Shown: in pieces, positions 2,364-23,474 of the stretch | How the letters are laid out: each line of letters begins with the position of its first letter | Position numbering within the stretch: position 1 is the stretch's first letter | Assembly: GCA_030753015.1 (NCBI GenBank) | Contig: JASMDC010000004.1 | Location: forward strand, 1 to 64,000 | From: Candidatus Undinarchaeales archaeon | Lineage (GTDB): Archaea > SpSt-1190 > JASMDC01 | Direction: 5' to 3' | DNA length: 64,000 nucleotides | Notes under the pieces: model-generated | What the model was told of the DNA's origin: nothing | What the model saw: only the letters and a program-made list of their open reading frames with translations | Database searches by the model: none | Made by a program: the position numbers and the translations under genes

Positions 2364-3695
2364 TCATAGGCGTGAGAACGCCCTGATGCCACGCAGGAGG
2401 TTCATCGCGTCCCGTGGATCGCGCACGATCTCCCGCAGCCGGCGGCGGGCGAACGCGCTGGTGAGATAGAAGGACCTGTAGGCCTCCCGCAACAGCTCTT
2501 GGAGCCGCTCCTCCGAGAGGTGCGGATGGTCGAACACAAGCTCGAATGTGTTGAACCGGTCCCACTCCTCAGAGACGGTGATGCCTCTGTCCACGAGCTT
2601 GTCCCAGCTCGGCGTACCGGGGAAGGGTGTGAAGATGGAGAAGTTAGCAAAATCCGGTCCCAGGTCACGGGCCGTGTCGATGGTCGACCGTACCGATCCC
2701 TCGGTGTCGTCCGGGAAGCCGAGGATGAAGCATGCTCTCACAGCGACACCGTGGTCCTGGCACATGCGCACCACCTCCTTTGTCCGGTCCAGGTCCACGG
2801 CCTTGCCAATCGCCTTGCGCTCGTCGACCGACGCGGACTCCACACCGATGCCCATGGAGGTGCAACCTGCGTCCGCCATGACGGTGATCAGTTCCTCGGT
2901 GAGAAGGTCGCTGCGGGCCTGGCAGTTCCAGGTGAGGTCGTACTCTGTGATCCGGCGGCAGAACTCCCGGGTCCGTTCGTCGTCGAAGGGGAAGGTACCG
3001 TCCATCACCTTGAAGTCCCGCATGCCGTGCTCCTCCACCAGCCGGTCGATGGAGGCGAACACCAGGTCCAGCTCGATGCGGGCGTGGCGTGACGGGCGCT
3101 GGCAGAACCCGCAGGCGAAAGGACAACCGCGCATGGTGAAGACCGGGTAGGAGGGCACGTGCTTGGATGTGATGGTGCCCTGGCCGTACCTGTCCATGTC
3201 CAAAAGCTCGTAGGCAGGGACACGGTCCGCGTCGGGCGGAACGGGTGCGGTGTGGACGCCTTTCGCAGCCCCGCGCACGATGGCGGCGAGCGCGCCCTCA
3301 CCATCGCCCACGACGACGTCGTCAATGCACCCCTCGGCCACGGTCTCGTTCGGAAGGACCGACGGGTGAGGGCCGCCCAGCACTGTCCGTGCACCTTCGT
3401 CCCGGGCCCGCCGGGCTATGGCGAGCGCCCCGGGGTACACTGACGTGTGAGCGGTTACGCCCACGATATCCGGTCCCCGGGCGAGGGCGGCGTCCAGGTC
3501 CTCGGCCTGACCGACCGCCATGTCAAGCACCTCGACCTCGCACCCGGTCACGTCCCGGACGTACCCGCCCAGGTGCGCCAGCCACACCGGCGGCCATGAT
3601 GAGGCCAGGTGGAACATGGCACGACCCATGGACCGCTCGCTCTCGGGCGGATTGACCAGCAGGAGGCGGTGGGCCCGCGTCGCGCGGGCCATCAT
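2364..3695 (-). CDS. B12-binding-domain radical SAM protein, last gene of the U32 cluster
   Basis: About 443 residues. The N-terminal 150 residues look like the cobalamin-binding Rossmann domain of BchE-type enzymes (LLLVNPPES, then VTAHTSVYPG and GGPHPSVLP), without a classical DxHxxG motif. The radical SAM cluster motif CPFACGFC has its cysteines at about 191, 195 and 198. The C-terminal tail with EAYRSFYL is typical of this subgroup. The chosen ATG overlaps the acyltransferase stop as ATGA; a further ATG lies three codons upstream. Such enzymes methylate or rearrange unreactive carbons; the substrate here is unknown. It is related to the radical SAM gene at 47955-49334, which ends in a similar EAYRAFYL tail. 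Confidence 0.9.
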   Translation of the reverse strand: MMARATRAHRLLLVNPPESERSMGRAMFHLASSWPPVWLAHLGGYVRDVTGCEVEVLDMAVGQAEDLDAALARGPDIVGVTAHTSVYPGALAIARRARDEGARTVLGGPHPSVLPNETVAEGCIDDVVVGDGEGALAAIVRGAAKGVHTAPVPPDADRVPAYELLDMDRYGQGTITSKHVPSYPVFTMRGCPFACGFCQRPSRHARIELDLVFASIDRLVEEHGMRDFKVMDGTFPFDDERTREFCRRITEYDLTWNCQARSDLLTEELITVMADAGCTSMGIGVESASVDERKAIGKAVDLDRTKEVVRMCQDHGVAVRACFILGFPDDTEGSVRSTIDTARDLGPDFANFSIFTPFPGTPSWDKLVDRGITVSEEWDRFNTFELVFDHPHLSEERLQELLREAYRSFYLTSAFARRRLREIVRDPRDAMNLLRGIRAFSRL

Positions 3696-4342
3696 CCCTC
3701 CCATTCATAGGGTCGGGAGTAGAATCCCTTCATGCAGGTGAGCTCCGACACGTCCTTGACCACGCGGGCCGGGCTGCCGATGACCACCTTGCCTGCCGGA
3801 ACATCCTTTGTGACCATCGCACAGGCGCCGACGATGGCACCCTCGCCCACGGTGACGCCCGGGAAGATGGTGGCAAGCGCACCGATCTTGGCGCCCTTCT
3901 TGATGTGCGGCGCGCCCAGACACTCAGTGTACCTCGGGCACCGCGGGTGGGGATCGTTGAGGAAGAGCGACCGTGGCCCGATGAAGGCATTGTCCTCGAT
4001 GACAGAGTACTCGCCCAGGATGGCGGCCGTGTGGATGCTGACGTTGTTGCCGATGCGGTGGCCGTTCTCCAGTGCCACGAGCGTGCCGATGCTCGCGTTG
4101 TCACCGATGACGTTGTCCTCCCGGATGCGTGCGCCGCTGCCCGTGGAGAGGTTGTCACCGATGGTTGTCCCCGCGTAGATCACCGAATGGGTGCGGACCA
4201 CGGCGTTGTCGCCGATTACCAGCTCCAGCTCGCCGGCCTCGCTGCCCCGGGGCGGTACACCCAGCACCACGTAGGGCTCGATGACCGCGTTCTTCCCCAG
4301 CTTGACATTGGGGTACCGTACGTACGGGATGTCCTCGACCAT
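3692..4342 (-). CDS. Left-handed beta-helix (hexapeptide repeat) acyltransferase
   Basis: About 216 residues made almost entirely of hexapeptide turns (IGDNAVV, IGDNLST, IGDNASI, IGNNVSI, IEDNAFIG), followed by the usual closing segment GALATIFPGVTVGEGAIVGA and GSPARVVKD. It resembles O- or N-acetyltransferases that act on nucleotide sugars, such as those acting after a DegT aminotransferase. The ATG at 4342 is preferred; a GTG three codons upstream nearly abuts the preceding stop. It overlaps the next gene by four bases, so the cluster is probably translated as one unit. The substrate cannot be read from sequence. Confidence 0.9.
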   Translation of the reverse strand: MVEDIPYVRYPNVKLGKNAVIEPYVVLGVPPRGSEAGELELVIGDNAVVRTHSVIYAGTTIGDNLSTGSGARIREDNVIGDNASIGTLVALENGHRIGNNVSIHTAAILGEYSVIEDNAFIGPRSLFLNDPHPRCPRYTECLGAPHIKKGAKIGALATIFPGVTVGEGAIVGACAMVTKDVPAGKVVIGSPARVVKDVSELTCMKGFYSRPYEWEG

Positions 4343-4352
4343 GATCGTCACC

Positions 4353-5153
4353 TCACACCGGCGGCCGGGGCTGCACCACCAGCCGCGTGATACCCATCTC
4401 CGCCAACCGCCCCTCGTCGGGCACGTCGGGGTTCTCGTAGAACACCGCGTTCCCATGGAGTAGGAGGGGTCCGGGCATGACGGGATGAGTGAGCGTGAAG
4501 GATGTGGTGCGGCACTGTCGGCCGCAGGACCAGACACCGACGCGGACGGGCCCGTCGCTGTCGCAGTTCGCCGTCGGGCAGAGCCGCGTGGTGGTCACGG
4601 CCATGAACGGCGTGTACAGGGAGCCCTCCAGGGGATCAGGCCCCTTGCTGAGATCGAGGTCCAGGCCCTGGAGGGGGTTGTCCACCTCGACGCGCCTGAC
4701 GCCCCGCTCGTGCAGGAACCGCCTGAATACCGGGACGGTGAGATTGTTCTCCCGGTACTGGCGCAGGGTCTCGTCCGGAAGGCGGTCGATCACGCGCATG
4801 ATGCGCGGCCCCTTGCGCAGCCGGTTGAGCACACGGCCCATGAGGGGTTCGAGCCCCTGGTCCCGGAGCGTGGTCAGCACGCCCCAGTCGTTGGCCGCCA
4901 CCTCGCACCCGGCCTCCTCGGTCGCCAGGGCGGCAAGTACGGGGTCGAGCCGGTCCAGGCCGACATCGGTCACCAGGGGAGTGACAAGCGTGAAGGCACG
5001 CCCCGCGTCCCTGGCCGCTTGGAGCACCGACATGACCTCGGTCTCGGTGGGGATGAGGTTCTGGCAGAACTCGCTTCCGAAGTACACGCGCCGGGCATCC
5101 TCCTCGACAAGATCGAGCTGGTCGGCCCGTCCTATGAGAGTGGCCCGCTCCAT
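4353..5153 (-). CDS. U32-family protein resembling UbiV (4Fe-4S)
   Basis: 266 residues. Cysteines occur at 30, 197, 210 and 214 (also 83 and 192). The spacing between the last three, 13 and then 4, is the same as between UbiV iron-sulfur ligands C180, C193 and C197, and Cys30 fits the N-terminal ligand (C39 in E. coli UbiV). UbiV pairs with UbiU in oxygen-independent ubiquinone hydroxylation. The start ATG overlaps the stop of the preceding U32 gene as TGATG, as expected for partners made in equal amounts. No ubiquinone genes are visible, so the substrate is probably different. It could instead be a generic U32 protein without hydroxylase activity. Confidence 0.8.
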   Translation of the reverse strand: MERATLIGRADQLDLVEEDARRVYFGSEFCQNLIPTETEVMSVLQAARDAGRAFTLVTPLVTDVGLDRLDPVLAALATEEAGCEVAANDWGVLTTLRDQGLEPLMGRVLNRLRKGPRIMRVIDRLPDETLRQYRENNLTVPVFRRFLHERGVRRVEVDNPLQGLDLDLSKGPDPLEGSLYTPFMAVTTTRLCPTANCDSDGPVRVGVWSCGRQCRTTSFTLTHPVMPGPLLLHGNAVFYENPDVPDEGRLAEMGITRLVVQPRPPV

Positions 5154-6253
5154 CAGGCGTCCACCTCCATGACCGATGGATAGTAGCAGTACCCAAGCTC
5201 GCAGTCGACGCCGAACCGCTGCTTGTGCTCGGCCCGTGTGTGGCGGATGAACTCCTCCCGCGAGGGCTTCTCGGTCGCCATGTAGTCCAGAAGATGACGG
5301 ATGAACCGCACGTCGCCCAGCTTGCGCGACGTGGGAAAGGCACGGCCGATTATCTTAATGCTCTCCAGGCCCATGGTCGCCAGATCGTGGATGGCGCAGG
5401 CACCGCACTCCATCTGTGTCTTGCGCTTGACAAAGTGCTTCATGCGCTCCTGCACATTGGCCTGCTGCTCCTCGTCCACGTCACCCTCGATGGTGACGGT
5501 GTGACGCAGCTCGCAGGGCTCCAGCCACTCCATGGACACGCTCTCGTCGATGAGCGCCTCGAGCACGCGCTTCGGCAGGCGCTTGGCCAAGGACACCACC
5601 CTGTCGTTGTGCTTTACCGCCATGAAGGCCTTGCCCACCAGGGGGTGGACCGGGTTCATGATCTCGTGGAGCCCGTGCTGGAAGGTGCAGTACCCCTCGA
5701 CGTTCCGGCACCGGCCGTTGAGGATGAACACCTCGACGCCCATCCCCTCCGAGCCCTTCACGATGCGACGGATCTCCTCGACGGTGAGATGTCGGTCCAG
5801 GATGACCCGAGAGGCGCCCAGGTCGTGGAAGAATGCGGCAGACGTGGCGTTGATGACTGAGGCCCCTGTGCTCACGTGGAGGTCGACAGACAGTCCCTCG
5901 TCACGGAGCAGGAGCAAGAGCCCGATATCGGCGATGATGAGCGCGTCCACGCCCACGTCCACTGCGGTCCTCAGCTCGTCGAGCACCACAGGGTACTGGT
6001 CCTCGTCGTAGTAGTGGGCATTGGCGGCCATGTACACACGGGCGCCCCGGTCGTGTGCGGTGGTCACTGCCTTCCGTATCTGGTCGAAGGAGCGGAAGTT
6101 GGGCTCGCCGCACTCCCGCCGGTTCGAAGAGCAGATGGTGCTGTAGGTATCCTCCCACTTCTTGGTGATGAGGCCGCAGTAGAATGCATCGGCGCCGGCA
6201 TCGAGCAGGGGCGCAACCTCGTCTGCCGTGGTCAGGGGCGACAGCAGCTCCAT
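5153..6253 (-). CDS. U32-family protein resembling UbiU (predicted 4Fe-4S)
   Basis: 366 residues starting MELLSPLTT. It has the TIM-barrel entry segment LLDAGADAFYCG, YMAANAHYYDED, LHVSTGASV and the family core FILNGRCRNVEGYC, in which Cys182 and Cys189 are seven apart like C169 and C176 of UbiU. Further Cys residues at 247, 283 and 286 (MECGACA) could complete a cluster. A longer upstream start at 6292 is rejected because a TATA-like block (6279-6289) lies between it and this ATG. It overlaps the UbiV-like gene. UbiU, RlhA and TrhP all add hydroxyl or carboxymethoxy groups through this fold; the target here is unknown. Confidence 0.87.
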   Translation of the reverse strand: MELLSPLTTADEVAPLLDAGADAFYCGLITKKWEDTYSTICSSNRRECGEPNFRSFDQIRKAVTTAHDRGARVYMAANAHYYDEDQYPVVLDELRTAVDVGVDALIIADIGLLLLLRDEGLSVDLHVSTGASVINATSAAFFHDLGASRVILDRHLTVEEIRRIVKGSEGMGVEVFILNGRCRNVEGYCTFQHGLHEIMNPVHPLVGKAFMAVKHNDRVVSLAKRLPKRVLEALIDESVSMEWLEPCELRHTVTIEGDVDEEQQANVQERMKHFVKRKTQMECGACAIHDLATMGLESIKIIGRAFPTSRKLGDVRFIRHLLDYMATEKPSREEFIRHTRAEHKQRFGVDCELGYCYYPSVMEVDA

Positions 6254-6278
6254 GGCTCTCGGCGGGAAGCAATCGGGC

Positions 6279-6289
6279 AAAATATATAA
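6279..6289 (-). promoter_or_regulatory. TATA-like element of the U32 pair
   Basis: GTTATATATTT on the minus strand lies about 30 bases before the ATG at 6253. It also falls just after the aminotransferase stop codon when read in the direction of transcription, so the U32 genes may have their own promoter within the cluster. Confidence 0.55.
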
Positions 6290-6307
6290 CATGAACGTCC
6301 GGGCGCA

Positions 6308-7537
6308 TCAGGCCAGTGCCCGCTTGATAACGGCCACGGTCCGCTCCATGTCCTGTTCGCTCAGGGTGTGCCACACGGGAAGGGCCAGACCTTGCTCATC
6401 AGCGCGAGCAGCGACCGGGCAGGGCCGCGCGTACTCCTTCAGTGCGGGCAGGTTGCAGCAGTCGTCGGCGATGTTCACCTTGGTGTCCACCCCTGCACGG
6501 AACAGCTCCTGCACCAGACGCTGGCGCTCCTTGACCTGGATGACATAGTGGTAATAGATGTGGCTTCCGCCATCCGCCTCCTCGGGCACCGTCACGCCCG
6601 GGACGTCCTGCAGGCCCTCTGTGAGCACCTTGGCCCGCTCCCTGCGCGCGTCGCCGTTGTCGTCCAGACCGTCTAGCTGGACCAGCCCGGTCCGTGCCTG
6701 GAGGGAGGACATGCGCACGGTGTAGGTAGGGGGCATCTCGTCCTGCAGGATCTCGTCGTGGGCCATGCCCTTGGGTGCTCCTCCACGGACCATGGAGAGG
6801 AGTCGCAGCGGTGGGTACAGACCGAGGGAGTACACCCACGGCCGGGATAGGACACCGCCCACGGTGCCGATGGCAACCTTGATTGCGAGCTGCTTCCTAC
6901 GGGGGAGGGCGTACTCGCGTTCGAAGGCACGCACCTTCTCGGCCAGCTCCTCGTCATCGGTCGTCACCATCCCGCCACCGAAGGCGGTCATGTTCTTGAA
7001 GAGGTTGAAGGAGAAGAGACCCGCCGTTCCCTGCGAGCCCACCCGCCGGTCGCGGTACGAAGCACCGTTCGCCTGGGCGCAGTCCTCGATGACAGGCACC
7101 CCCCGCTCCTCCGCCAGCTCCAGCACCTCGTCCATGGGAGCGGGGTTGCCGAAGAGGTGGGTGGGGATCAGCACGCCGGTGTCGTCCCCGACCACCGGCC
7201 GGAGCGTCTCAGCAGAGACGTCGAGCGTGCCCTGTTCCACGTCAGCGAACACCGGCCGACCGCCCGCCATGAGGGCCACGTTTCCCATGCCCCAAAAGGT
7301 GAAGGCAGGTAGGACCACCTCCTTCCCCTCGACACCCAGGGCCCGCAGCAGGTGGTGGAAGCCCGTCCGCGCGGAGCCCACGGCGATTGCATGACGGACG
7401 CCGATGAGGGCCGCGAAGTGTCGCTCGAGCTTTGTGATGTCGTAGGGATCCTCGCCCCCGAACAGGCCATAGGCCCCCCGAACGGTGTCGCCCAGTCCGA
7501 CGTTGACGTGGTGCCGGGGGAAGCTCTTGAGGCCCAT
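6308..7537 (-). CDS. DegT/DnrJ/EryC1-family PLP aminotransferase
   Basis: 409 residues. Fold-type I sugar aminotransferase: a substrate entry segment LPAFTFWGMGN, the PLP contact EDCAQANGA at about 151-159 and the Schiff-base lysine in FNLFKNMTAFGGG (Lys181). These enzymes usually transfer an amino group to a keto sugar nucleotide and are often found with hexapeptide acetyltransferases, one of which lies three genes downstream. The start at ATG 7537 is preferred because it lies about 25 bases after an A-rich block on the minus strand; a TTG start at 7567 is also open. It is the first gene of the cluster that includes the UbiU/UbiV-like pair. Confidence 0.9.
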   Translation of the reverse strand: MGLKSFPRHHVNVGLGDTVRGAYGLFGGEDPYDITKLERHFAALIGVRHAIAVGSARTGFHHLLRALGVEGKEVVLPAFTFWGMGNVALMAGGRPVFADVEQGTLDVSAETLRPVVGDDTGVLIPTHLFGNPAPMDEVLELAEERGVPVIEDCAQANGASYRDRRVGSQGTAGLFSFNLFKNMTAFGGGMVTTDDEELAEKVRAFEREYALPRRKQLAIKVAIGTVGGVLSRPWVYSLGLYPPLRLLSMVRGGAPKGMAHDEILQDEMPPTYTVRMSSLQARTGLVQLDGLDDNGDARRERAKVLTEGLQDVPGVTVPEEADGGSHIYYHYVIQVKERQRLVQELFRAGVDTKVNIADDCCNLPALKEYARPCPVAARADEQGLALPVWHTLSEQDMERTVAVIKRALA

Positions 7538-10032: not shown

Positions 10033-10057
10033 CCCGGGGAGCAGGAGGCGTTCTAGG

Positions 10058-10067: not shown

Positions 10068-10089
10068 TTTGAGTCGCTTGCCCCGTTCC

Positions 10090-11055
10090 ATGCTGCTCAA
10101 GGACATCGATGTGTGCGTCACCGGCGGTGCGGGGTTCATCGGCTCGTCCATGACCGATGCCTTGCTGGAGCTTGGATGCGGTGTCACCGTCATCGATGAC
10201 CTCTCGGCAAGCGACATGACCCGGCTCGCAAAAGCGAAGTGGCACGAGACCTTCAGGTTCGTGAAAGGGGACGTGCGCAAGCCCGATGACCTGGACAGGG
10301 CGCTCCCCGGATGCAAGGCAGTGGTCCATCTGGCAGCAAATCCCGAAGTGCGCGGTACGGCGACCGAGGTCCACCTCGAGCAGAACGTCCTGGCCACCCA
10401 CACGCTGCTGGAGGGGATGCGCCGCAACGACGTGCCCTTCATCCTGTTCGCGTCCACGTCCACGGTGTACGGGGAGGCCGACCAGGTCCCCACTCCAGAG
10501 GACTACGGCCCGTGCAATCCCATCTCGTTCTACGGCGCCTCGAAGCTCGCGTGCGAGGCCATGATCTCCTCCTACTGCCACCTCTACGGCCTGCGAGCCG
10601 TCTCCATGCGCCTGGCGAACGTCGTGGGACCGCGCTCGGGCCACGGCGTGCTGTTCGACTTCGTGCGCAAGCTCCGCACCGATCCATCCCGCCTGGAGGT
10701 GCTGGGGGACGGCACCCAGACGAAATCGTACATCCATATCGACGACTGCGTGGGCGGGTTCGTCCTGGCAGCCCAGCGCACCGAGGCCGCGTACGACGTG
10801 TTCAACATGGGCTCGGACGACCGCGTCCCGGTAAAGCGGATCGCCGAGCTGGTCATCGAGGAGATGGGTGTTGACTTCAAGGACGCGCGCATCGAGTACA
10901 CCGGCGGCGTGGACGGTGGTCGGGGCTGGGCCGGCGACGTGAAGATCATGCAGCTGGGGTGCGACAAGCTCCAGAAGCTCGGCTGGAAGCCCGAGCACGG
11001 CTCGGAGGAGAGCCTGCGGATGACGCTGCGCGGGATACTGGGCAAGGAAGCGTAG
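10090..11055 (+). CDS. NAD-dependent epimerase/dehydratase, UDP-glucose 4-epimerase-like (extended SDR)
   Basis: About 321 residues. The NAD-binding motif TGGAGFIG is near the N-terminus, HLAANPEVR is the usual second contact, and the catalytic Ser/Tyr/Lys set is seen in FASTSTVYGE and SFYGASKLACE. The GDGTQTKSYIHIDDC segment is typical of archaeal GalE-like enzymes. The ATG at 10090 is chosen because of the TATA-like block 27 bases before it; an upstream in-frame start would lie over the promoter. Likely supplies a sugar nucleotide for surface glycans. The exact substrate cannot be fixed by eye. Confidence 0.93.
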   Translation: MLLKDIDVCVTGGAGFIGSSMTDALLELGCGVTVIDDLSASDMTRLAKAKWHETFRFVKGDVRKPDDLDRALPGCKAVVHLAANPEVRGTATEVHLEQNVLATHTLLEGMRRNDVPFILFASTSTVYGEADQVPTPEDYGPCNPISFYGASKLACEAMISSYCHLYGLRAVSMRLANVVGPRSGHGVLFDFVRKLRTDPSRLEVLGDGTQTKSYIHIDDCVGGFVLAAQRTEAAYDVFNMGSDDRVPVKRIAELVIEEMGVDFKDARIEYTGGVDGGRGWAGDVKIMQLGCDKLQKLGWKPEHGSEESLRMTLRGILGKEA

Positions 11056-21542: not shown

Positions 21543-23474
21543 TCACGCTCCCTTCTTGCCGGAGAGCCCACGCACGTCCCCCGAAGATACGGTGGAATCG
21601 GCCCCTACGTCCCCCTCTCCCCTGAGCCACTCCAGGACGTTCCGCATCAGCCGCGTGTGCTCGAAGGGCGCCTCCGAGGATACGACACGGTAGTCCCCGA
21701 TGCACAGTACCCTGCCCTTCCCGCGTGTGGTGGCCACCATGATGGGGATGAGCCCCTTCTTCTCGAAATCGTCGTACCTGAGGTTGAGGTTCTGGTCGCC
21801 GAAGCTCTCCTTGCTGCCAAAGGCCAGCACCATGGCGTCGGTGCTCGACAGGGAGCAGCTTCTGAATATACGCATGCGACCGACGCTCTTGAGGATGGGG
21901 TGGTTTGCCAGCCCCTCGAGGAGGGGCGCCACCGTGACCCGGTAGCCCGTGTCAGTAAGTTCGTAATCGCAAACAAGGTCCTTGTTGAACCGTATTCCGA
22001 ACGCCCCCGACAGGGATGTACAGGCGTTCGCGTCACCTGAACCGAGCCCCGAGGCGAGGATGAGGAGCCCCATACCGCGGTACCGGACGCTATCGATGAT
22101 GGCCGACACCTCGTCCTCCGTATAGCGCGAAACGGGATTGGCCACTACCAGCACGTCCGTCTCTTTCAGGACGGACATGATGTCGCTCTCCCTCTGGACC
22201 TCGCATTCCATGTCCTCGGCCGTCGAGATGAGCGGCGAGAGCGCCGTCATGAGCTTGGGGTCCTGGCCATGGCCCACGTCGAACGTGATCGCTGTTCGTG
22301 CGGTCAGGAGACCTGATGTGCTCAGCTCGCGGGCCAGGGCGAGGGTGAAACCCGCGGAGAGCACGACGAACGTGAGCACGAGAGGGACCAGGGCGAATCC
22401 CCGGAACGGGCTCGGGCTCGGGCTCGGGGTCGAGATCGCCTCCGACGAGGGGATTGCCTCGACGGTCGATGTAGCGGACGGCGCTACAGTCGCCCGTCCC
22501 AGGTGCTCCACGACCGCGGGTGTCGGCTCGGCGATGGTTGTCAGATAGTCCATCTCCTGACGGATCAGGATCCGCTGGTTCGCTTGGTCCGTTATGTACA
22601 CCTTACCTTCGAAGAGGAATATCCCATGAGGCGTGTTCAGTTCCAGTGGGCCCGAACCGTGCTTACCGGTCCCGTACTGGCCGAGATGGCCCCCGTCCCG
22701 ATCGAACACCTGGACGCGGTGGTTCTCCGAGTCCGCCACAAAGACCCTTCCGCTCCCCTCGTCGACAAAGACGTCCCGGGGCTGGAGGAGCTGTCCGGGA
22801 CCGCTCCCTGTACCGTCCCCGATGTGTCTGCGAAACAGGCCCGCGCGGTTGAACACACTGATCCTGTCGTTCTCCATGTCGGCCACATAGACCTCGGTGG
22901 CGGTGACATAGATGCCATAAGGGGACTCCAGCCTACCGTCCTCCGCACCAGGTAATCCCGCTATCCGATACTGGGGAGCCCCGGTCGAGTTGAACACGCT
23001 GATCCGGTGGTTGCCTATGTCCGATACGAACACATTACCGTCCCGCACGAACACGCTCACCGGGAAGCTGAACTGGTCGGGCGCGTCGCCCTCGGTCCCT
23101 GTCCCGATCATTCCCACAGAATTGCCGTCCAGGTCGAACATGCTCACCCGGTGGTTGGCGGCGTCTGCCACGTAGACACGGTTGTCTGCGACGAAGACGT
23201 CCTCCGGCTCATTGAACTGGGTCGAGAGGCTACCGTTCAGTCCCGCTCCGATCTGGCCGACGTGGTTCCCGTCCAGGTCGAACACGCTCACCCTGTAATT
23301 GAGGCGTTCTGCGACATAGAGCTTCCCGCCCACGACGAAGACACCGCACGGCTCGTAGAACTCTCCCGGACCATCGCCGAGCTGTCCAGTTCTCCCAATC
23401 TGCTGGAGCGCTGTCCCGAGAGCGAGCGCGAGGGCAAGGGCACCAATGATAAGGACTGCGTTCGTCCTCCCCAC
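21543..23474 (-). CDS. Membrane-anchored NHL beta-propeller protein with a C-terminal DUF4350-like domain
   Basis: 643 residues. A signal or anchor helix (about 5-25) leads to six NHL blades (repeats such as PEDVFVADNRVYVADAANHRVSMF) through about residue 300. A Ser/Pro linker and a transmembrane helix (about 355-375) come next. The remaining 270 residues contain DVLVVANPV, GMGLLILASG and GRVLCIGDYR, resembling the DUF4350 or class I glutamine-amidotransferase-like fold without a clear nucleophile Cys. A TATA-like TTTTTATTATC lies about 28 bases before the ATG. It is upstream of, and coupled to, the Cys-pair repeat protein. Likely a surface sensor or scaffold; the function is unknown. Confidence 0.82.
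   Translation of the reverse strand: MGRTNAVLIIGALALALALGTALQQIGRTGQLGDGPGEFYEPCGVFVVGGKLYVAERLNYRVSVFDLDGNHVGQIGAGLNGSLSTQFNEPEDVFVADNRVYVADAANHRVSMFDLDGNSVGMIGTGTEGDAPDQFSFPVSVFVRDGNVFVSDIGNHRISVFNSTGAPQYRIAGLPGAEDGRLESPYGIYVTATEVYVADMENDRISVFNRAGLFRRHIGDGTGSGPGQLLQPRDVFVDEGSGRVFVADSENHRVQVFDRDGGHLGQYGTGKHGSGPLELNTPHGIFLFEGKVYITDQANQRILIRQEMDYLTTIAEPTPAVVEHLGRATVAPSATSTVEAIPSSEAISTPSPSPSPFRGFALVPLVLTFVVLSAGFTLALARELSTSGLLTARTAITFDVGHGQDPKLMTALSPLISTAEDMECEVQRESDIMSVLKETDVLVVANPVSRYTEDEVSAIIDSVRYRGMGLLILASGLGSGDANACTSLSGAFGIRFNKDLVCDYELTDTGYRVTVAPLLEGLANHPILKSVGRMRIFRSCSLSSTDAMVLAFGSKESFGDQNLNLRYDDFEKKGLIPIMVATTRGKGRVLCIGDYRVVSSEAPFEHTRLMRNVLEWLRGEGDVGADSTVSSGDVRGLSGKKGA

Follow-up and report, generated by a model that had tools for sequence, protein, structure and literature searches.

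What would a pair of proteins resembling UbiU and UbiV do in an archaeon? The question is raised by a minus-strand cluster at positions 2364-7537 of a 64,000-nucleotide stretch of a Candidatus Undinarchaeales genome (contig JASMDC010000004.1; hereafter the window, meaning the whole stretch). Two adjacent U32-family genes in this cluster, encoding a "U" subunit (5153..6253, minus strand, 366 aa; PF01136, 113 bits) and a "V" subunit (4353..5153, minus strand, 266 aa), stand among genes for an aminotransferase, an acyltransferase and a cobalamin-binding radical S-adenosylmethionine (SAM) enzyme. On balance, we consider it likely that the two proteins form a heterodimeric U32 hydroxylase with [4Fe-4S] clusters, from a new branch of the family, which acts without O2 on an organic substrate and probably draws its oxygen from prephenate. 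The heterodimer, its Fe-S clusters, the hydroxylation and the role of prephenate are read from computed features, namely the gene cluster, the ligand columns, the clade, the paralogues and the linkages to other genes.

Cysteine ligands, fold and placement of the pair

V matched no Pfam or NCBIfam model, and a sequence search of the PDB with U or V returned no U32 protein; the U32 likeness came from fold searches with single-chain AlphaFold2 models. The V model (pLDDT 82.4, pTM 0.84) matched one PDB entry significantly, that of the U32 protein 5D88 (E 5.5e-5), which was also the top match of the U model (pLDDT 74.5; E 1.9e-8). The ligand cysteines of the UbiU and UbiV [4Fe-4S] clusters have been defined by experiment (PMC6747719), and the E. 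coli MG1655 sequences served as references. In an alignment with UbiV, the columns of C39, C180, C193 and C197 hold C30, C192, C210 and C214 of V; all four are invariant across the 24 pairs compared and are predicted [4Fe-4S] ligands. The initial annotation had chosen C30, C210 and C214 rightly and had taken Cys197 for the remaining ligand, a residue that is missing in paralogues C37b and C26 and whose role falls to C192. The "13 and 4" spacing that it shared with UbiV is consequently a coincidence, the true spacing of the ligand columns (C192-C210-C214) being 18 and 4.

In U, the cysteine pair previously likened to UbiU C169/C176 does occupy those columns (C182/C189) and is conserved in 24/24 pairs. 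A CGxC motif (C283, C286) and C356 are kept in 22 of the 24 and C351 in 21, while C247 matches the UbiU C232 column in one alignment. Against the NCBIfam UbiU equivalog, U scored 99.6 bits and did not pass the cut-off of 440; its score against the TrhP model was 93 bits, with a cut-off of 534.

In maximum likelihood trees of U (LG+C20, ultrafast bootstrap/SH-aLRT), the family falls into two groups (support 100/100). UbiU, TrhP, YrrN/YrrO and RlhA make up the first, and the second comprises the archaeal pairs, pairs from bacterial operons for quinohemoprotein amine dehydrogenase (QHNDH) and a lone Desulfuromonadales U. The V tree was weakly resolved and was not relied on. The window pair thus shares its clade and its Cys pattern with the QHNDH-linked pairs, and judged by sequence it is UbiUV-like in anatomy, whereas neither the tree nor the model cut-off makes it a member of UbiU. 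For the initial annotation, which had called the pair UbiU/UbiV-like, this means that the likeness stands as far as conserved ligands and the co-variation of U with V (below) are concerned and fails as a grouping with UbiU. Its proposal of a substrate other than ubiquinone gains support from the same ligands, co-variation and tree.

The trees also bear on whether the pair might hydroxylate tRNA or rRNA, as TrhP, YrrN/O and RlhA do. The common Pfam family, the weak TrhP match and the two-gene make-up of some RNA enzymes (YrrN-YrrO) would agree with such a role. However, window U groups with none of the TrhP, RlhA or YrrN/O enzymes, the genome already has its own RlhA-like protein (C56) that falls with RlhA, and most of the pairs cluster with biosynthetic enzymes and not with translation genes, so an RNA substrate appears highly improbable.

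Divergent U-V pairs or U copies, which are distant members, were also seen near radical SAM genes in an Elusimicrobia genome (G064; L065, L066, L067). At L066, where neighbours were named by eye as at the other Elusimicrobial loci, the U32 genes lie beside a gene of more than 2000 codons resembling a polyketide synthase.

Relatives in QHNDH operons and in other archaea

A scan of 84,980 genomes with window V, which reaches close relatives only, found 16 bacterial loci with V, each with an adjacent U (16/16). At 15 of these (L009-L021, L023, L024; Bacillota, Desulfuromonadales and gammaproteobacterial metagenome-assembled genomes), U-V is flanked by QhpB and the QhpF-type ABC transporter within a QHNDH operon, in which QhpA (PF09098), QhpC (PF08992), QhpD (TIGR03906, 342 bits) and the subtilase QhpE were identified. 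The cysteine tryptophylquinone (CTQ) cofactor of QHNDH requires two oxygen atoms on QhpC Trp43, which in Paracoccus are introduced by the flavoprotein QhpG (PMC7876137). A QhpG query gave no homologue in 13/13 genomes with U-V-bearing qhp operons and was positive for both control plasmids, one being the source of the query and the other matching at 33% identity. On plasmids of Paracoccus and Pseudomonas, canonical QHNDH operons contain a flavin adenine dinucleotide (FAD) enzyme and lack U-V, and no U of either type was found on the plasmids. In the 14 loci where QhpC was read, the Cys and Trp of CTQ and the three Cys-Asp/Glu cross-link sites are kept. Given U-V in these operons, the failure to find QhpG and the retained CTQ residues, the most economical interpretation is that the pair would supply the two oxygens in QhpG's place. 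The open-access literature yielded no paper that connects U32 proteins with QHNDH, or with the theme of radical SAM enzymes and tryptophylquinone.

The QHNDH operons further allow a proteolytic role to be weighed, in which the proteins would be true U32 peptidases cutting a precursor peptide. The family name suggests it, and a leader peptide does need removal in these operons. Yet operons with the pair still encode the subtilisin-like protease QhpE, and the four-Cys cluster motif is that of U32 hydroxylases (PMC6747719), which leaves a peptidase pair hardly credible.

Among archaea, a V profile run over 394 genomes gave strong matches (E <=2e-59) in this genome and in three others (G252, G264 and G300, the last two forming one family). 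U adjoins V in each of the three, and the radical SAM enzyme HxsB of the Hxs (His-Xaa-Ser) systems is encoded within ~12 kb of the pair (330-392 bits, cut-off 370). Two of the three also have HxsD near the pair, and G252 has HxsC4-like radical SAM genes. HxsB is present in 39/394 genomes, including 4/4 of those bearing V. A naive hypergeometric calculation by hand gives 8e-5 for this co-occurrence, or 9e-4 with G264 and G300 counted once and kinship otherwise uncorrected. Outside the window, then, radical SAM enzymes recur as partners of the branch, and most plainly those that modify peptides (QhpD in bacteria, HxsB in other archaea).

Proteins with beta-propeller repeats (NHL or PQQ-like) and an N-terminal hydrophobic stretch are also encoded near the archaeal pairs (L095, L096, L097), and this arrangement of Hxs, U-V and beta-propeller recalls QHNDH. 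The window has an NHL beta-propeller of its own (21543-23474), which was considered as a possible substrate; it is only ~27% similar to the propellers by archaeal pairs, over a common repeat, and lies 14 kb away, and it was not used.

Seven pairs in one genome and the window cluster

The genome (3.85 Mb, 117 contigs) is archaeal, as seen for example in a TFIIE alpha gene near one of its pairs (contig C32). It holds seven V genes, each adjoining a U: one in the window (C62), two on C37 and one each on C32, C42, C26 and C29. The six V paralogues are 43-48% identical to window V. Four further U copies without V form their own clade (L036 7637-8722, 12481-13596 and 13609-14691; L037 9456-10655). 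Neither the six additional pairs nor the lone U copies featured in the initial annotation. V is absent from all nine class-mates, whose genomes measure 0.6-1.1 Mb against 3.85 Mb here. The distance matrices of U and V correlate (r 0.66 over 24 pairs, p 0.0001; Mantel r 0.78 over the seven pairs of this genome, p 0.002), as expected for partners, although shared operon ancestry would give the same signal.

The surroundings of the other six pairs, where genes were called with a simple codon model, are varied. On C42 (L033 9474-13030), V and U stand immediately upstream of genes for a flavin mononucleotide (FMN) reductase and chorismate synthase, all on one strand and 15-37 bases apart, a possible hint that an oxygen donor pathway is co-regulated with the U32 hydroxylase. 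The two C37 pairs lie around a methyltransferase and an asparagine-synthase-type amidotransferase, glycosyltransferases and two cobalamin radical SAM genes occur within 8 kb of the C26 pair, and close to the C29 pair are a PMT-like transferase and two radical SAM genes of the HxsC4-like type. Upstream of U-V on C32 is a Tes/TrsS-like radical SAM gene. A lipid (tetraether) reading of that pair was rejected, because the genome has six related copies of the neighbour, which scores 139.8 against a Tes cut-off of 450 and is not diagnostic. In all, seven Tes/TrsS-like paralogues and many more radical SAM matches were seen in the genome.

These loci also inform the question of whether the pair hydroxylates a respiratory quinone, or another isoprenoid or aromatic cofactor, as a UbiUV analogue for another quinone. 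UbiU-UbiV is indeed the closest functional analogue, and chorismate synthase adjoins the C42 pair. On the other hand, there are seven pairs in this one genome, in a separate clade, and no quinone biosynthesis gene was seen by the window pair with Pfam or NCBIfam; a quinone substrate is accordingly rather improbable.

Within the window, translations and Pfam matches bear out five minus-strand genes in the order DegT, U, V, left-handed beta-helix (LbH) transferase and cobalamin radical SAM enzyme. The first (6308..7537) encodes a 409-aa aminotransferase of the DegT/DnrJ/EryC1/StrS family (PF01041, 258 bits) dependent on pyridoxal phosphate (PLP), with the PLP-lysine motif SFNLFKNMTAFGGG in its translation and matches far under cut-off to NCBIfam sugar aminotransferase models. 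The fourth (3692..4351) encodes a 219-aa LbH (hexapeptide) acyl/acetyltransferase (PF00132, 80 bits), which scores 85 bits, under cut-off, against a NeuD/PglB-like acetyltransferase model. The last (2364..3704) encodes a 446-aa cobalamin-binding radical SAM enzyme (PF02310 and PF04055) with a CxxxCxxC motif at GCPFACGFC; its best NCBIfam matches are HpnJ/BchE/AprD4-like and all far under cut-off. The overlapping or near-overlapping ends noted before for the last four genes were confirmed, with an overlap of 1 base between U and V, a gap of 1 base between V and LbH and an overlap of 13 bases between LbH and the radical SAM gene; DegT and U are 54 bases apart. This spacing fits a single transcript, and the U-V pair is probably co-transcribed with its three neighbours.

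Conservation of the five-gene order had been put forward as a check. The arrangement with DegT, LbH and the cobalamin radical SAM enzyme recurs neither at the six other pairs of this genome nor at the three pairs of other archaea nor in the bacteria, and no DegT paralogue was found beside the other pairs of the genome. Gene order was therefore rejected as evidence for the pathway of the window. This affects the suggestion that the pair's substrate is a nucleotide sugar, glycan or lipid headgroup, which after hydroxylation is aminated by DegT and acylated by LbH. The headgroup was originally proposed from just the DegT and LbH neighbours, and gains no support from the present results. The PMT-like and family 2 glycosyltransferases near the C37, C29 and C26 pairs are consistent with such a substrate. 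Nevertheless, DegT and LbH stand together beside no other pair examined, and it is established that the characterised U32 hydroxylations all fall on sp2/aromatic carbons (PMC11574389). The clearest contexts in the clade, moreover, are peptide-modifying systems (the peptidyl aromatic residues of QHNDH and the Hxs peptides), which points away from a headgroup and makes a sugar or lipid substrate unlikely.

Directly downstream of the cluster and on the same strand lie ruvC, ruvA and ruvB (136-2298, minus), a bacterial-type Holliday junction set on an archaeal contig, with RuvC identified by PF02075 (145 bits) and RuvA and RuvB recognised by eye. A second cobalamin radical SAM gene runs from 8497 to ~10035 (minus); its 853-residue open reading frame is probably over-extended across an epimerase gene (10069-11055, plus), which would place the true start near 10035.

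Proposed chemistry and comparison with known systems

As a hydroxylase, the pair would form a heterodimer of two TIM barrels with one [4Fe-4S] cluster per subunit, at which an oxygen donor, probably prephenate, would be activated before the oxygen passes to an sp2 carbon. Genetic data suggest prephenate as the oxygen donor of U32 oxidases (PMC11574389), and it has been reported or suggested for UbiU-UbiV, TrhP and RlhA, which by analogy makes it the probable donor here. The chorismate synthase and FMN reductase by the C42 pair, together with a prephenate dehydratase gene in the genome, indicate that the donor pathway is present and fit this choice. The product of the window pair would then probably be tailored by C-functionalisation (cobalamin radical SAM enzyme), amination (DegT) and acylation (LbH).

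A broader proposal, which we hold as tentative, is that the members of the branch hydroxylate, independently of O2, aromatic residues of peptides modified by radical SAM enzymes. In qhp operons the pairs would replace QhpG and dihydroxylate QhpC Trp43 for CTQ, and the archaeal pairs, including that of the window, would likewise make protein- or peptide-derived aromatic products, with one archaeon having seven such enzymes.

Several observations count against the reading of the window pair set out here. Within the U branch, the UbiU ligands C193 and C232 have no clear one-to-one counterpart, so the remaining U ligands would be other cysteines (C247 or C283/C286) and the cluster site probably differs; on the sequence evidence, U may hold its cluster somewhat differently from UbiU. 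Several of the bacteria that carry QHNDH (Aneurinibacillus, Brevibacillus, Neobacillus) do not live as strict anaerobes. The Hxs cluster of this archaeon (C40; L110 5203-11600), with HxsD, an HxsD-like gene, HxsB and four HxsC4-like radical SAM genes, has no adjoining U-V pair and lies away from all seven pairs, and QhpC was not found in the genome by a search that had no positive control match; on both counts, the link to peptides does not extend to the window copy. Biochemistry on this U32 branch was likewise not found in the open-access literature searched.

Oxygen insertion into carbon without O2 is rare chemistry. To our knowledge, U32 hydroxylases have so far been known only for ubiquinone and RNA bases, and with this branch their range would widen to Archaea and to peptides or other natural products. 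For QHNDH, whose quinone cofactor is known as the product of an FAD monooxygenase, a concrete prediction follows, and the operons with a U32 pair in the vacant role of QhpG may be the most testable result. That one archaeon has seven paralogous pairs suggests that a whole set of anaerobic hydroxylations still awaits description.

Among known systems, UbiU-UbiV, the anaerobic ubiquinone hydroxylase of E. coli, resembles the window pair in being an adjacent U32 pair with the V ligand set and the U C169/C176 pair. The window pair differs in its separate clade, its score under the UbiU cut-off (99.6/440 bits), its archaeal genome, its seven copies and its gene neighbours; UbiU C193/C232 have no clear one-to-one match in window U, which has C247, the CGxC motif (C283/C286) and C-terminal Cys instead. 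TrhP, YrrN-YrrO and RlhA share with the window pair the U32 family, a [4Fe-4S]-type Cys motif and probably a prephenate requirement, but they belong to the other clade, work as single proteins or as a different pair and act on RNA. Hxs radical SAM systems are linked to U-V in three other archaea, whereas the window cluster contains no Hxs gene. The QHNDH-linked pairs match the window pair in clade, U and V ligands, adjacency and a radical SAM neighbour. They sit with QhpA/B/C/D/E/F, however, while the window pair sits with DegT, LbH and a cobalamin radical SAM enzyme, without QhpA/B/C/D neighbours by Pfam or NCBIfam. QhpG, the peptidyl-Trp dihydroxylase, is the proposed functional equivalent of the QHNDH-linked pair, yet it is an unrelated FAD monooxygenase.

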